In this document: positions 3,322 to 10,100 of the stretch, one piece after another
Position numbering within the stretch: position 1 is the stretch's first letter
Layout of the letters: each line of letters starts with the position of its first letter
NCBI GenBank assembly: GCA_016795155.1
Contig: JAEUIE010000027.1
Location: 1 to 64,000 of the forward strand
Length of the DNA stretch: 64,000 bases
Direction of reading: 5' to 3'
Origin: Planctomycetia bacterium
GTDB taxonomy: Bacteria > Planctomycetota > Planctomycetia > Gemmatales > HRBIN36
The notes under the pieces: model-generated
The model's database searches: none
What the model was told of the DNA's origin: nothing
Seen by the model: only the letters and a program-made list of their open reading frames with translations
Position numbers and translations under genes: made by a program

Positions 3322-4128
3322 CTACTTCGAAAACCGATGTCTCACCGCCTTCAGACACAACCAGGTCATGAGCAACACCACGATGCCAAAGATCGTGGTG
3401 AATACTCCAGCTACGATCCATTCCTTGGTAGTGCGGGCGAGGCGTTCGGTGCCATCACGGTTCAGCTTCTCGCTAGTCAACACGACATTGGTAAGGAGTG
3501 CGAAGAAGAGCCAGAGAACGATGGTGAGCATGAACACGCCACCCGTCCAGTGAGGCCACTGGCCAGGGCCAGCAGGCTGCCTGTTCGCCATCAAAGCTCG
3601 ACGTTTTCCCCGGCGAATAAGCAGCACACCGCTGACAAGCAGAAATAACAGGATCAGCGAATGTAGTAGCAGATGTCGCAGTTCAGGGATCGAACCCGAC
3701 ATCGTTGCAGCTGGCTGCCACCACTGTTGCTCGTGGTCAGGCCAGTGAATCACCTTGTATCTCTTCCCTTCCACTTCCTGGCGTGTAGGCTGCGTACCTA
3801 CTGCACTGCTTTCGGTTTCAAACACCATCACGGAGACATCGCGGTCGTTGGTGTAAACCTTCTGGCCGCCAGGATGAAAGATGCCTTCAATCTGATTTTG
3901 ATGGGATGAAGGTCGGCTCCTCCCGTACCTGTTGCGATCAACCTGTTCCTGATAATGGTAAGCAGTTACTTCAAGTTCGCCTTCGATGTAGTGGGCCCGG
4001 TGCCAGTAAAGGTTGAACATCCCTGCTACCATGAACAGCCACATCAGTCCGATGACAAAGAGCAACACGCCCGCCACGATGGAGCCTAACCCTCTCCCCG
4101 GTGCTCGATTGCGGTAGACGATTTGCAT
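3322..4128 (-). CDS. Membrane protein, DUF3592-like
   Basis: The 268-residue protein has an N-terminal membrane helix (about residues 14-40), a soluble segment of about 110 residues, and three more helices (about 150-170, 195-220 and 238-262). The soluble part contains GIFHPGGQKVYTNDRD, similar in layout to DUF3592 proteins in which two helices flank an extracytoplasmic beta domain. No catalytic motif is seen. It is a stand-alone gene between the toxin-like module and the propeller gene; function unknown. Confidence 0.6.
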   Translation of the reverse strand: MQIVYRNRAPGRGLGSIVAGVLLFVIGLMWLFMVAGMFNLYWHRAHYIEGELEVTAYHYQEQVDRNRYGRSRPSSHQNQIEGIFHPGGQKVYTNDRDVSVMVFETESSAVGTQPTRQEVEGKRYKVIHWPDHEQQWWQPAATMSGSIPELRHLLLHSLILLFLLVSGVLLIRRGKRRALMANRQPAGPGQWPHWTGGVFMLTIVLWLFFALLTNVVLTSEKLNRDGTERLARTTKEWIVAGVFTTIFGIVVLLMTWLCLKAVRHRFSK

Positions 4129-4243: not shown

Positions 4244-5323
4244 TTACGGTTTGAACTCCTCAAATGTCTTTCCGTTAAACTTAAACACTCCGGCACCATT
4301 GGTGCCTACCCAGAAGTCGCCACGTTTGTCCTGGTAAATGGACTGAATCCAGATTTGCTTGGTATCTGCTTGTATGGGATAGCGGGTGAGGGTTTTGCCA
4401 TCGTACCGCCAGACGCCTTCGTTGTAGGTGGTCATCCAGAGGTGGCCTTGCTTGTCGGTCATGGCGGACGCGAAGTAGAAGGAGTCTTCTCCGACTTGGG
4501 CTTTCAGATCGCCCAGGCCGGGTTCTTGCTGGTAGTTGATCTGACCGCTATTACTCTTCGGCGAGATGTTGTAACGGTGCCTGGTGTTGCAGATCCAGAA
4601 CTTCCCTTCGTTATCTTCCACAATGGAGCGGATGCCAAAGGAGCCACCGCCAGGCACATTGGTCAAACGGTCTTCGTACAGCCAGTCGAAGGTCTTGCCA
4701 TCGTAGCGGACAGCACCCAGGTCGGCGGTGCCAAACCACAGGCTGCCACGCCGGTCTTTATAGATGGAGTAAACGTCGTACGGGGTATACCTGGCATTGG
4801 GGAATTTATCACGCGGGAGGCTAGCATAGTGGTCATCGCCACGCTTGGTTGTCGGGAAGGCCAACTGGTGTAAGGCGGTGCCATCATAGCGATAGACGGA
4901 CCCAGAGTTCTGGGCACCGCCGAACCACAAGTCATCTGGCTGCAGCTTCCATCCAGTACCGGGAGGATGCTTCTCTGCTACTTTCACCGTAGTGAATTTT
5001 TGCCCATCATAGCGGCTGACACCTTTGGTGGTATTGATGAAGATGTCGCCTGATTTGTGTTGCTGGATGCCACGAATTCGATTGTCAGGCAACCCGTGTT
5101 TCGTGGTGAACTGCGTCAGGGTTTTTCCATCATACCGAAAGACACCCTGGCCATCGCTGCCGAACCAGTGGTGGTTGCTCTTGTCCTGGAAAACGCTCCA
5201 GATACTCTTGCTCATTTCAGAAACAATGTCGCCTGGAATATGCCTTGGCTTTTGGTCGTTCCACGCGAATGTAGACTTTGTGACTAAAAGCGAGAAAAGA
5301 AAAACAGCATGATAAATAAACAT
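4244..5323 (-). CDS. Secreted beta-propeller protein (two-component regulator propeller repeats)
   Basis: A signal peptide (MFIYHAVFLFSLLVTKSTFA) is followed by about seven or eight repeats of roughly 45 residues, each centred on W-F/I-G/N-T and ending in a V-x-R-Y-D-G-K-T/F motif, for example GVFRYDGKTLTQF and GVWRYDGKTLTRY. This is the Reg_prop pattern that builds the periplasmic sensor of hybrid two-component systems. Here the protein stops after the propeller, so it is a free periplasmic propeller with no kinase attached. Its ligand and partner are unknown. Confidence 0.8.
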   Translation of the reverse strand: MFIYHAVFLFSLLVTKSTFAWNDQKPRHIPGDIVSEMSKSIWSVFQDKSNHHWFGSDGQGVFRYDGKTLTQFTTKHGLPDNRIRGIQQHKSGDIFINTTKGVSRYDGQKFTTVKVAEKHPPGTGWKLQPDDLWFGGAQNSGSVYRYDGTALHQLAFPTTKRGDDHYASLPRDKFPNARYTPYDVYSIYKDRRGSLWFGTADLGAVRYDGKTFDWLYEDRLTNVPGGGSFGIRSIVEDNEGKFWICNTRHRYNISPKSNSGQINYQQEPGLGDLKAQVGEDSFYFASAMTDKQGHLWMTTYNEGVWRYDGKTLTRYPIQADTKQIWIQSIYQDKRGDFWVGTNGAGVFKFNGKTFEEFKP

Positions 5324-5512: not shown

Positions 5513-6394
5513 TCATGGTGTGATGTGGAACTGTCTGGGTTGTAACCCCATCGACCGGTCGCGGCAGTATCTGGTGCGGTAATCGGTGTATCGACGGGTT
5601 TGGGTATGATCACAGAGAACACATCCATACGTTTCGCTTTCTGTCTGCTGGGATGGTTGTCCATAGTAGTTACGTGAGAGTCGCTGATCCTTGCCAACAG
5701 GTCCCCAGCCGGGTGCATGGCACATCGGACATGGTGTAGACAGCCGACGTGCCAGCTTGCGTGCCAGCAAACCAATTTCCGCCATGCGTGTCGGATTGAC
5801 ATGGGCACGCATATCAGTCGCAACCCAGACCAATCCATCGGCGGACTGTTTTCTTGCGAGCTGGTAGTAGTATGCCAGATTTTTGGCATTATCGATGCCA
5901 GGGTAGATAGGCTCCCCGGGCTTCCAGACGTTGGGCCGCAATACCAGTGCATGCGAGGGGAACTGTGTCCTGGCGGCAAACTGTAGCAGTGCTTCGACGG
6001 AGTCCACCGTCTCGTGCTGGTAGCTGGTTAAGGTGTGAAATCGACGCATATACAGATGAAAATTCCGCCTGCGGTCGATGAAATAGAGCACTTCCAGAGA
6101 GAATGGAATGAAGGGATATCCTGGATTTGGTTCGAAACAGGCCTCGTTCGCCAGCCCATAGTCAGCATCGATTTGGTTCATTCCCCATTCGCATTTGCGA
6201 CGAGCGGTCTCCAGCACCGTACCAGTGGGTTCCACCTCCCTGGTAAAGGTACCAAGTTGATCGGTGTCCAGGGTATACTCAGTGACTGTTGCACCCAGAA
6301 TTTCCTGAAACGCTGGAGCCACTGCTATAGATTTCGCATGTTTCGTCGTCATGAGTATACATGCGTCATGATAGGGCGATGATTTATTCAGCAT
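5513..6394 (-). CDS. DUF6671 family protein, overlaps dabA
   Basis: The 293-residue protein fits DUF6671: an N-terminal segment ACILMTTKHAKSIAVAPAF, then LDTDQLGTFTREV, a central NEACFEPNPGYPFIPF-like stretch, and a C-terminal zinc-ribbon-like part with CPMC near residue 219, CVLCD near 256 and a final RYC. The family has no established function. The ATG lies inside the last codons of dabA, an 11-base overlap that implies coupled translation in the order dabB, dabA, DUF6671. That context suggests, without proof, a role linked to inorganic-carbon uptake. The extended N-terminus aligns with the family, so the first ATG is preferred. Confidence 0.75.
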   Translation of the reverse strand: MLNKSSPYHDACILMTTKHAKSIAVAPAFQEILGATVTEYTLDTDQLGTFTREVEPTGTVLETARRKCEWGMNQIDADYGLANEACFEPNPGYPFIPFSLEVLYFIDRRRNFHLYMRRFHTLTSYQHETVDSVEALLQFAARTQFPSHALVLRPNVWKPGEPIYPGIDNAKNLAYYYQLARKQSADGLVWVATDMRAHVNPTRMAEIGLLARKLARRLSTPCPMCHAPGWGPVGKDQRLSRNYYGQPSQQTESETYGCVLCDHTQTRRYTDYRTRYCRDRSMGLQPRQFHITP

Positions 6395-8624
6395 GGTAAC
6401 TCCACTTCAGGTCGCGATTGAGCAGGTAAGGTTGATGATCGGTCGGGTCAATACAAGCCAAGGTGACCCAGCCATTGCCAAAGAGTTTCTTCAATACATC
6501 CTGTTTCTGGATGATGGAATCTACCGTGGTGCGCTTCGCATACACCACAGTCAGCAGACGCAGTGGTTCATGGTAAGGCTGATCATGGGCGGCATAGACT
6601 GATTGCAGCGGAAGTCCATGCATCAGGTCGCTGGCATTACCCTGCATCACGCCGAGCTTGCCAGCTACGTTGTGCGTGATCTTGCTTCCTGAGCCGTAAG
6701 CGACGTTGTTGAGAGTTGAAAAGAGATACTGGGAATTGATCCACTGTGCTACCACCATGGGTGCAGTAAGGATCGTGGTCAGAAACTTGCCTTCCGGATC
6801 GGTCTTCCAGTCGTAGGAGTGGAGGAAACAGCGACCATCGAGGTTGAGGTGCCGTGTCAGTTCCCTGGGCCCGACGATAAAAGCTGCGTTTCGTGCCAGT
6901 CCCCATTCCGGCCGTACTTCCGCCCAGTCACTGCTTCGCCTGACGGTTTCCCGCACCGCTTTCTGGCCCGTCAACGAAGGCAGGCCAAAGGTTCGGGTTC
7001 GTGTTTGTGCGTTGGCTTCCCGGGCTTTGGCCAGATCGGTTTGTAAATGGCTTAATTGTTCCTGGTGCTGCTCGGAAAGGCTCTGTTGCTGGAACAACTC
7101 GACCTGATCCGTAGTGGTATCATGCTCACCGGCAACAAACAGCGTATCCGATGGGATAAGCAATCCTCGTTCAGCCAGAGCAGAACGCACTTCATGGCGA
7201 TTCAGGATGGCAGCCAGAATCCGTGCGTTCCCCCCGCCGTGATTGCCTCCGCATGCACCGCAGTCCAGAGCCGAGGCATAGGCGTTGTTGGTAGTGCTGC
7301 TGCCATGCCCGCAGAATACCACCAGGGGAGCCAGGTTTTCTGTGAGACCCATCATGCGTAGTGCTGCTTCACCATAGTCGGCCTGCTGAGTAAGCGTGAT
7401 GTCATCGAGTACAGGTTCCGTTAATACCGGCGGAACTACCCTGCTGCGAACTGCTTCTGCCAGGTTCGATAAGCGGGCAGGCATGATGCTCTGCGCCAGC
7501 ATTTGCACGCCAAACCAGGGGCCCAGCATTTCCACGAGGGCGAAAGGTGTGGTGAAGTTGTACTTGAGCCATTGATAAAACCGGGTCGGCATCCGGAGCA
7601 GCGAACGACCCCTTTCATGCCGTTTCACACAACCAGATGGGGTATCGCATGCCTGCTCACCCACCTGATGCTGAGGCTTGAGCAGTACCGGGCAGGAATC
7701 ATAGGATTGTTCTTCACCATACTTCTTCACCTGCACAGACAGACCGAAGAATCCTGCAAACCCCAGGGTGTCATAGGAGCCTTGTGCTTCGATAGACCGC
7801 CGGAATGGTTCAGAGCGAACATCGATACAGAAGACCAGTTGAGCCTTCGGCCGCTTCTTAGTCGTGATAGCGGTTGTTCCGGTCTGCAATGCCAACTGCT
7901 GCAGCAGCGTGGTACGATACCGCTTTTCCCTGACTGGCATATCTTCCAGAAAGGATGGCTTGGGAGTATCAGCGGCATTCTGTGCCTTGACTCCCGGCCA
8001 CAGGATCCGTGTCAGTATCAATCGAACTGCAACATACTCCACGAGGGTGGCTGGACGCCGGGCAAACTCTGCGCGATTCTGCCAGAGTTCTTTCCATTTC
8101 ACATAGCCTGACCACCCGGGCAATGCCGCCAGGGACTGTCTGACGAAGTCCTCCTGTTCTTCTCGTGCGATTCCCAGTTCCCGCAGGCATTGCACGATGG
8201 CTGCCTCCGGCGATTCCGGCAACACTTCGAGCAGTTGGGTCGAATGCAGATCAGAATTCAGACGAGCATCGAAGCGTGCCAGATCTCGGAAGGACTGGTA
8301 CAACCCCTGTTCGCGGCCCGGCATACCGATGGTTGCTTGCCCTTCATCAAAATAGGCGGCACACCACTTGATCATTTCGCGATTCACCCGTTCACGACCG
8401 CTGCAAGCATCGCTGCTTGCCATGCGCTGCCGATCTGCCTCCAGAACTGCCTGCTCAAAAGGCAGATGTTCCAGTCCTTGAAGCGGATTCACGGCAATAA
8501 AGGTTTTCAGGGGCCAGACGGGGGCCACCATATCACTGGCACTGGTGACCAGTTCCTTGATGGAAATCCTTTCCGGGTTCGTTGCAGAACTGGCTCGTCG
8601 GGCGGACTGGGTCTGCACAAACAT
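6384..8624 (-). CDS. dabA: Inorganic carbon transporter subunit DabA (DUF2309)
   Basis: The ATG at 8624 follows AAAGGAG at a spacing of six and gives 746 residues; a longer frame upstream overlaps dabB and is less likely. LVFCIDVRSEPFRR near residue 265 and VVFCGHGS...DCGACGGNHGGG near residues 435-465 hold the Cys-Asp-Arg and His-Cys zinc site that resembles a beta-carbonic anhydrase active site. In the DAB system DabA sits on the inner face of the membrane with DabB and is thought to hydrate CO2 vectorially, driven by the cation gradient. The gene starts 10 bases after dabB ends, so the two are one operon. Confidence 0.93.
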   Translation of the reverse strand: MFVQTQSARRASSATNPERISIKELVTSASDMVAPVWPLKTFIAVNPLQGLEHLPFEQAVLEADRQRMASSDACSGRERVNREMIKWCAAYFDEGQATIGMPGREQGLYQSFRDLARFDARLNSDLHSTQLLEVLPESPEAAIVQCLRELGIAREEQEDFVRQSLAALPGWSGYVKWKELWQNRAEFARRPATLVEYVAVRLILTRILWPGVKAQNAADTPKPSFLEDMPVREKRYRTTLLQQLALQTGTTAITTKKRPKAQLVFCIDVRSEPFRRSIEAQGSYDTLGFAGFFGLSVQVKKYGEEQSYDSCPVLLKPQHQVGEQACDTPSGCVKRHERGRSLLRMPTRFYQWLKYNFTTPFALVEMLGPWFGVQMLAQSIMPARLSNLAEAVRSRVVPPVLTEPVLDDITLTQQADYGEAALRMMGLTENLAPLVVFCGHGSSTTNNAYASALDCGACGGNHGGGNARILAAILNRHEVRSALAERGLLIPSDTLFVAGEHDTTTDQVELFQQQSLSEQHQEQLSHLQTDLAKAREANAQTRTRTFGLPSLTGQKAVRETVRRSSDWAEVRPEWGLARNAAFIVGPRELTRHLNLDGRCFLHSYDWKTDPEGKFLTTILTAPMVVAQWINSQYLFSTLNNVAYGSGSKITHNVAGKLGVMQGNASDLMHGLPLQSVYAAHDQPYHEPLRLLTVVYAKRTTVDSIIQKQDVLKKLFGNGWVTLACIDPTDHQPYLLNRDLKWSYHAE

Positions 8625-8634
8625 GAAGTCTCCT

Positions 8635-9984
8635 TTAATACTGATAAGCGGTTCGGGTTGCGGTAATGGTGGTGGCGTGGGGTTGGCTTGCGTTGAGCGC
8701 TGCCACATAGAGTTTTTTCCACCAGCGAAGTTGCTGAACCCTGGCGGGAATATCGAAAAGCATGGCTAACCACATCAACGTGATCATGCCTAATCCAGAC
8801 AGGTAAAGGACATTCATGGGCTGAGGTGCGATGCGGTGTAGCGAAGCGAGGGCAGAATCCACCAGCAGGATACTCAAGCCATACAGTCCACCGGCGAGAG
8901 TACAGGCCAGCATGGTACCCAATACCCGGATGATGTGGATTCGCTCACCCAGTAATCCCACAGCAAGCTGAGTGGTAACCATCATTGCCAGGGCAAGCAT
9001 CAGGCAACGCGTATCGGCCAGGCTGAAGGGTGTTCCACAGATGATGGCAAAGGTCGCAGCCCCGACTACACCCGCGATGATGGCAACAAGTATGCCTGCA
9101 GGCGTTAAGGCGGCAGCCCGGGCGCGGCTGCGTTGTTCCCGTATGTAAGACCCGGCGCTCAGAAACAGATAGGCCTTGAAAAGACCATGCCAGCACAGAT
9201 GCGAAATGGCGGGGGCAAACAGACCCATCCCGCATTGCATCAGCATGAACCCCATCTGACCCATGGTGGAACAGGCCAGCATGCGCTTGATATCTGTCTG
9301 CAGCAGTTTCCAGAACGTGCCCAGCACGGCCGTAATCAGCCCGGCGACAAAAAGGAATTGCAGGAGCATCGGCTGCGTGGCATAGACAGACGCGAAACGC
9401 ACCAGCAGAAAACCGCCACCATTCACCAGCCCGGCATGCATCAGGGCTGAGACCGGTGTGGGCGAGTTCAGTGAAGAAATCAACCAGCGATGAAAAGGCC
9501 AGGCAGCAGATTGAGTCAAGGCAGCCAGGGCAATCAGCACTAACCCCGCCACACTCATGGTGTTCAGTTCAGACTGGTTTTGCATCAGGTTGCTGATCAA
9601 GGCAGTACCCGCTCCTTCCGCTAGTAACCAGAAACCTGCACCGAGCAAAACCAGACCCACGCCGAACGTTTTCAAGGCCAGCCAACCGGACTGACGGGCA
9701 GCCTTCCATAGCGGCTGGTGAATCATCAGTTTCACCAGAAGTGCGTTGCTGACAGCCCAGGCTGTGAGCAGAAGCAGCAGATGGTTGGAAAAGACCATGA
9801 TGATAGTGGTTACAGCCAGCAGTAGCATGGTTCCCTGATGACGTGCCTGCCTCCGATCCCCCGCCAGATAGCGTTGTGAATACACGGTCACATTGGCAAC
9901 GATGAACACCACTAATCCCGCCATGACCCATGCCAGGCCATCAGGCAGAATGAGGTTCGCATCGTGAAAGTGAAACAGCGGCAT
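8635..9984 (-). CDS. dabB: DAB cation-coupled subunit DabB (NuoL/MrpA-like)
   Basis: The ATG at 9984 follows AGGAG with a five-base gap (an upstream ATG at 10008 has none), giving 449 residues. The protein is almost wholly membrane-embedded, with about 12-14 hydrophobic helices. Segments such as AAWPFHRWLISSLNSPTPVSALMHAGLVN are typical of the proton-conducting transporter family (ND5/NuoL/MrpA), including the conserved P-T-P-V-S-A-L-x-H-A-G motif. In DAB complexes this subunit supplies the proton or sodium path that energises DabA. Regulated probably by the divergent LysR gene. Confidence 0.92.
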   Translation of the reverse strand: MPLFHFHDANLILPDGLAWVMAGLVVFIVANVTVYSQRYLAGDRRQARHQGTMLLLAVTTIIMVFSNHLLLLLTAWAVSNALLVKLMIHQPLWKAARQSGWLALKTFGVGLVLLGAGFWLLAEGAGTALISNLMQNQSELNTMSVAGLVLIALAALTQSAAWPFHRWLISSLNSPTPVSALMHAGLVNGGGFLLVRFASVYATQPMLLQFLFVAGLITAVLGTFWKLLQTDIKRMLACSTMGQMGFMLMQCGMGLFAPAISHLCWHGLFKAYLFLSAGSYIREQRSRARAAALTPAGILVAIIAGVVGAATFAIICGTPFSLADTRCLMLALAMMVTTQLAVGLLGERIHIIRVLGTMLACTLAGGLYGLSILLVDSALASLHRIAPQPMNVLYLSGLGMITLMWLAMLFDIPARVQQLRWWKKLYVAALNASQPHATTITATRTAYQY

Positions 9985-10029
9985 GCAAACTCCTTTTTCC
10001 AAATGCATATGATTTTCTGTTTATCTTCC

Positions 10030-10057
10030 TTGACAACATACACGGTGCAGTTATATT
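10030..10057 (+). promoter_or_regulatory. Candidate promoter of the LysR gene
   Basis: TTGACA at 10030-10035 and TATATT at 10052-10057 are separated by 16 bases and read toward the LysR gene, giving a leader of about 47 bases. The site lies between the divergent dabB and LysR genes. Confidence 0.45.
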
Positions 10058-10085
10058 TGTAAAATTGATTGTTTTTATGTTAACG

Positions 10086-10100
10086 ATAAGTATTTCTTAT
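10086..10100. promoter_or_regulatory. LysR-type operator palindrome
   Basis: ATAAG-TATTT-CTTAT is a perfect 5-5-5 palindrome that contains T-N11-A (10087-10099), the classic LysR recognition core. It lies 11 bases before the LysR ATG and about 100 bases upstream of dabB, in the position expected of an autoregulatory and activation site. Confidence 0.55.

Follow-up and report, generated by a model that had tools for sequence, protein, structure and literature searches.

The window, i.e. the whole stretch of 64,000 nucleotides that was analysed, carries the genes dabB, dabA and DUF6671 in this order on its minus strand, next to a divergently oriented gene for a LysR-type regulator (Table 1). 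The dabB stop at position 8635 and the dabA ATG at position 8624 are separated by a spacer of 10 nt, with AAGGAG as the ribosome site of dabA, and the DUF6671 ATG at position 6394 precedes the dabA stop at position 6384, resulting in an overlap of 11 nt. This arrangement had been described in an earlier reading of the DNA made without database searches (hereafter the sequence-only reading), and its coordinates were confirmed. A sequence scan found neither a promoter-like site directly 5′ of DUF6671, in agreement with the single transcript assumed in that reading, nor a terminator between dabA and DUF6671, which would fit cotranscription of both genes. On the 3′ side of DUF6671, the window encodes a two-component-propeller (Reg_prop) protein (4244–5323) and a membrane protein (3322–4128) with a sub-threshold match to TctB.

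Table 1. Features of the dab-DUF6671 locus in the window
Feature	Position	Strand	Evidence and remarks
DUF6671 gene, 293 aa	5513..6394	-	PF20376, E 8.5e-39; sole copy in the genome
Zinc-ribbon-like tail of DUF6671, residues 222–261	5612..5731	-	C222, C225, C258 and C261 kept
ATP-grasp-like half domain of DUF6671, residues 122–219 (predicted)	5738..6031	-	Fragment model, Foldseek
ITPase/YjjX-like lobe of DUF6671, residues 1–121 (predicted)	6032..6394	-	AlphaFold2 model, Foldseek (YjjX, then HAM1), conservation
dabA, 746 aa from ATG 8624 (ORF open to 8708)	6384..8624	-	PF10070, E 5e-246; zinc-site motifs kept
dabB, 449 aa, ATG 9984 behind AAGGAG; earlier in-frame ATG 10008	8635..9984	-	PF00361 (Proton_antipo_M), E 1.5e-36
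T-N11-A palindrome ATAAG-N5-CTTAT, probable LysR site	10086..10100	.	0.02 expected in the window; related sites before LysR in dab and sbtA operons
Divergent LysR-type regulator, 288 aa	10111..10977	+	PF00126 and PF03466; 85% identical to LysR of L030

DabA of the window retains the zinc-site motifs CIDVRSE, GHG and CGACGG; the corresponding zinc-site residues of DabA from the DAB2 system are Cys351/Asp353/Arg355, His524 and Cys539 (PMC13144422). Together with the adjoining DabB, these residues identify the locus as a DAB system; a search of NCBIfam gave no match for either DUF6671 or DabA. The planctomycetal genome encodes one DabA and one DUF6671, and two matches to beta-carbonic anhydrase are located elsewhere in it. 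Since neither DabA nor DUF6671 was found in any of six other genomes of the same family, the dab-DUF6671 operon was probably either gained by horizontal transfer or lost from the other members of the family. The nearest known copy (locus L030, genome G208) belongs to another family and shows the identical order LysR-dabB-dabA-DUF6671, with identities to the window proteins of 85% for LysR, 68% for DabA, 64% for DabB and 59% for DUF6671.

The LysR protein combines an HTH_1 and a substrate domain, and a perfect ATAAG-N5-CTTAT, the sole T-N11-A palindrome of its kind in the window, lies in the divergent gap 10 bp before its start, which places it among the LysR regulators with a divergent site. 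Regulator and palindrome had both been noticed from the sequence; they hold up and recur at other loci. Perfect T-N11-A arms are present in 14 of 29 comparable LysR promoters, a few of these loci being duplicates, versus 4.0 in shuffles, and ATNAG-N5-CTNAT is the best match at a shuffle p ≤ 0.02 in 12 of the 29. This pattern occurs before both dabB and sbtA at a nearly fixed distance, and isocitrate dehydrogenase promoters contain a weaker ATAAA-N5-TTTAT-like site at a distance as in the dabB and sbtA promoters. A perfect site of this kind is missing from the L030 promoter in spite of the 85% identity of its LysR to that of the window. As the site is common to dab and sbtA promoters, one LysR subfamily probably serves both transporters, and the LysR of the window probably responds to low CO2/HCO3-, low CO2 being the signal that we infer.

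The DUF6671 protein reaches 134 bits against its Pfam profile (curated cut-off 23.8). For the AlphaFold2 model built from 62 sequences (pLDDT 88.8, pTM 0.83), the top four chains in Foldseek were YjjX (1u14/1u5w; probability 1.00, E 1e-4 to 5e-4), HAM1 came next and viral ITPases were also among the matches, so that the predicted structure has the fold of the ITPase-like (YjjX/HAM1/Maf) superfamily. Profile alignment of DUF6671 with YjjX and HAM1 by hhalign, against shallow target alignments, gave a weak match, in register but at a probability of 2–4%. Residues 122–219, modelled alone with a pLDDT of 95, gave Foldseek probabilities of 1.00 to cyanophycin synthetase and carbamoyl-phosphate synthetase and of 0.94–0.99 to biotin carboxylases, all at E ≥ 0.02 and thus not significant by E-value; about 75 residues match one subdomain and not the complete two-subdomain ATP-grasp fold. 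The weak profile match and these E-values count against the reading of DUF6671 set out below. Foldseek revealed no solved structure in which an ITPase-like lobe is joined to half an ATP-grasp domain, and no DUF6671 relative was obtained from a sequence search of solved structures or from the phage collection. The family alignment contains 22 invariant columns, among them H19, K21, T44, D45, G48, F50, K67, E84 and E101 in the ITPase-like lobe and D194, R196, A197, N200, P201 and R203 in the ATP-grasp-like half. The invariant columns, with H19, K21, D45, K67, E84, E101, D194, R196, N200 and R203 among them, look like an active site that would extend across both lobes.

The Cys-rich, zinc-ribbon-like end reported in the sequence-only reading was confirmed, but of the six cysteines conserved in the family only four are present in the window copy (Table 1). 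R241 and Y244 each replace a cysteine found in 98% of the 62 aligned sequences, P165 replaces the lid lysine of the KGI motif, which is kept in 95% of them, and E88 replaces a glycine (98%). The window copy hence lacks the six-cysteine tail and the KGI lysine typical of the family, neither of which is required by the Pfam profile. Gene decay as the cause of these losses was considered and rejected because comparison with the nearest relative yielded a dN of 0.35 at saturated dS, which argues against a pseudogene and for continued purifying selection. Judged from these residues, the activity of the window protein may differ from that of its relatives.

We compared three sets of DUF6671 loci: 12 annotated plasmid loci, the 80 loci of GTDB genomes nearest in sequence, and loci from genomes drawn evenly, irrespective of context, from the Planctomycetia, the Bacteroidota and the classes of an alphaproteobacterium and an Arthrobacter. 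DabBA or SbtA is found nearby in 10 of the 12 plasmid loci, one of which also contains a carbonic anhydrase. DUF6671 is rare in the evenly drawn genomes (11/398, 12/395, 11/289 and 6/297, in the above order). Of the 35 loci that could be read in these genomes, 13 have DabA and eight have SbtA at a distance of up to 5 kb, counted on DabA alone and SbtA alone. One of the two is thus near DUF6671 in 21 of 35 loci, versus about 0.2 by chance, as estimated from the size of the searched span and of the genome on the assumption that each gene occurs once per genome. About 40% of the sampled loci show no DIC transporter in view, in particular divergent copies from Alphaproteobacteria that adjoin peptidase or ABC-transporter genes, and this share counts against the low-CO2 reading set out below.

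Conservation of the coupling, on which the sequence-only reading made a DAB role of DUF6671 conditional, holds only in part: dabA and DUF6671 are neighbours in genomes of many phyla, frequently overlapping by 4 nt (ATGA), but a constant association is absent. Among the 398 Planctomycetia genomes, 261 encode DabA and 11 DUF6671; about six of the DabA genomes have DUF6671 adjoining, and about 250 of the 261 lack it. A quick tree of 123 DUF6671 proteins, supported by SH-aLRT only, requires at least 36 partner changes between 48 dab, 34 sbt and 41 other loci, where the dab label also counts a lone DabB-like match and rows such as L053, L080 and L063 may be mislabelled. Within the well-supported clade of the window (the smallest starred set beyond its sister, 24 rows), 13 loci are dab and nine sbt. 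DUF6671 forms similarly tight junctions with pyrC (1 nt), cysD (4-nt overlap) and ilvD; hence its tight coupling to dabA is not special to DabA.

Recurrent neighbours of DUF6671 further include PurE, PyrC, Sua5, MurF, IlvD, isocitrate dehydrogenase and acyl-CoA carboxylase, and loci with neither transporter often contain PyrC, PurE, Sua5, isocitrate dehydrogenase, IlvD or acyl-CoA carboxylase. Sua5 and acyl-CoA carboxylase use or make CO2/HCO3-, and dihydroorotase and the Mur ligases bear a carbamylated lysine. In the IlvD/EDD enzymes, too, a lysine is carbamylated with CO2 (PMC5770437), and isocitrate dehydrogenase and PurE/PurK have been described as CO2/HCO3- enzymes (PMC10880623). The theme common to these neighbours is the use or production of CO2/HCO3-, a CO2-modified lysine, or the supply of bicarbonate (DAB, SbtA and, at one locus, carbonic anhydrase). 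CysD and TerC are recurrent neighbours with no obvious fit to this theme and count against the low-CO2 reading. Replacement of carbonic anhydrase by DUF6671 was dropped as an explanation: a beta-carbonic anhydrase is present in 19 of 20 DUF6671 carriers, including the genome of the window, so that DUF6671 is not a simple substitute for this enzyme.

Some further features of single loci were apparent. The cysD gene (ATP sulfurylase small subunit) occurs in 14 DUF6671 loci (L016, L025, L026, L055 and others), several of which also contain dabBA. At one locus, AceK (isocitrate dehydrogenase kinase/phosphatase; L231, 6660–8327) directly follows ICDH-DUF6671. Two DUF6671 genes lie close together in L058, L071, L064, L053, L031 and L083, mostly from Bacillota and often with PurE. 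In Bacteroidota, a conserved protein of about 95 aa is encoded directly before DUF6671 (L225, 8722–8994; L226, 9088–9375; L227, 8864–9151; L228, 8768–9052), the one copy scanned giving no Pfam match. A divergent DUF6671 pair from Alphaproteobacteria (L242 and L245) lies beside ABC-transporter genes, in L245 also beside an M20 peptidase gene, with no DIC genes at these loci.

Starting from the observed gene order, recurrent association, partner switching, shared regulator site and predicted fold, we consider it reasonably likely that the locus is a DAB operon under LysR control in which DUF6671 is a soluble nucleotide-binding protein, not a DAB subunit, and belongs to a wider low-CO2 response. 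DabB and DabA would perform the proton-driven vectorial hydration of CO2 to bicarbonate, and DUF6671, which follows dabBA in what would be an inorganic-carbon supply operon under the divergent LysR, is predicted by the model to be a soluble, two-lobed nucleotide-binding protein with an ITPase-like lobe, half an ATP-grasp domain and a zinc ribbon. In the wider response, bacteria would combine a bicarbonate importer, either DAB or SbtA, in varying ways with copies of enzymes that use CO2/HCO3- or need a carbamylated lysine, and some would also have a carbonic anhydrase. We infer that DUF6671 would be induced at low CO2 and would most likely act catalytically, by hydrolysis or transfer of phosphate on a substrate that is a nucleotide, or a metabolite resembling one, and is connected with CO2-dependent biosynthesis, or else sense such a metabolite. 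It probably has a general supporting role in life at low CO2 and is no part of the DAB pump itself; it is best read as an enzyme or sensor that handles nucleotides within a low-CO2 regulon. A bolder version, which we regard as doubtful, would make DUF6671 a new CO2- or bicarbonate-responsive nucleotide enzyme, in which the ITPase lobe and the half ATP-grasp domain fused to it activate or sense HCO3- by way of a nucleotide signal or one resembling carboxy-phosphate. Such an enzyme would control a widespread and as yet undescribed low-CO2 programme in heterotrophs, with CO2-dependent enzymes backed by spare copies.

The sequence-only reading had proposed DUF6671 as an accessory or regulatory subunit of DAB, which would bind DabA. 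While the direct overlap of dabA and DUF6671 in several lineages and the common divergent LysR are in line with this proposal, we now judge it quite improbable: pairing with SbtA is comparably frequent, also in the nearest clade, partners were switched repeatedly, DUF6671 is absent from most DabA genomes and occurs without DAB at many loci of SbtA and CO2 enzymes, and the junctions with pyrC, cysD and ilvD are similarly tight. An unlikely alternative is an alkaline-pH or metal-stress island, in which DUF6671 would be metal-related through its zinc ribbon and the CO2 enzymes would be present because CO2 is scarce at high pH or because they are metalloenzymes. TerC-family neighbours, NhaR at one locus and the fact that DabA, PyrC and carbonic anhydrase are zinc enzymes speak for it; however, none of PurE, Sua5 and isocitrate dehydrogenase is a zinc enzyme, the regulator is of the LysR type and not Zur-like, and SbtA is a bicarbonate transporter. 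Very improbable, in spite of its ITPase-like fold and its occurrence on plasmids, is DUF6671 as a routine house-cleaning NTP pyrophosphatase that travels with mobile DNA and is functionally unconnected with carbon supply, since an enzyme of general housekeeping would not be expected to accompany DIC genes across many phyla and through repeated changes of partner.

The link between DUF6671 and inorganic carbon is stronger and wider, extending over many phyla, than the single locus of the sequence-only reading could show. How non-photosynthetic bacteria cope with low CO2 has been little studied, and the literature searched contained no paper on the DUF6671 family or on its combination with an inorganic-carbon gene set. 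In many phyla, DUF6671 is found beside copies of CO2-dependent enzymes and beside two bicarbonate importers that are unrelated to each other; it would mark a general low-CO2 module and give it a testable centre. The question thereby shifts from a third DAB subunit to the job of DUF6671 when CO2 is short.

When compared to known systems, residues 1–121 of DUF6671 resemble the YjjX/HAM1/Maf NTP pyrophosphatases in predicted fold and in the order of conserved K, D/E, K and E, whereas there is no match on the sequence level and these enzymes lack the second lobe and the zinc ribbon. Residues 122–219 resemble one subdomain of ATP-grasp enzymes (carbamoyl-phosphate synthetase, biotin carboxylase, PurK and cyanophycin synthetase), including the FPxxxLIVRP stretch, but represent only half of their fold, with the E-value limit given above. 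The SbtA-SbtB bicarbonate uptake locus is the alternative DIC partner of DUF6671 and has a similar LysR site, although its transporter, the Na+/HCO3- symporter SbtA, is structurally unrelated to DAB and absent from the window. As in the DAB (DAC) system of DabA (PF10070) and DabB (PF00361), the window has intact, adjacent dabB and dabA genes with the zinc-site motifs kept. The small membrane protein of DAB1 is unlike DUF6671, and DAB2 consists of two subunits with no third overlapping gene (PMC13144422), to which arrangement the window adds DUF6671.
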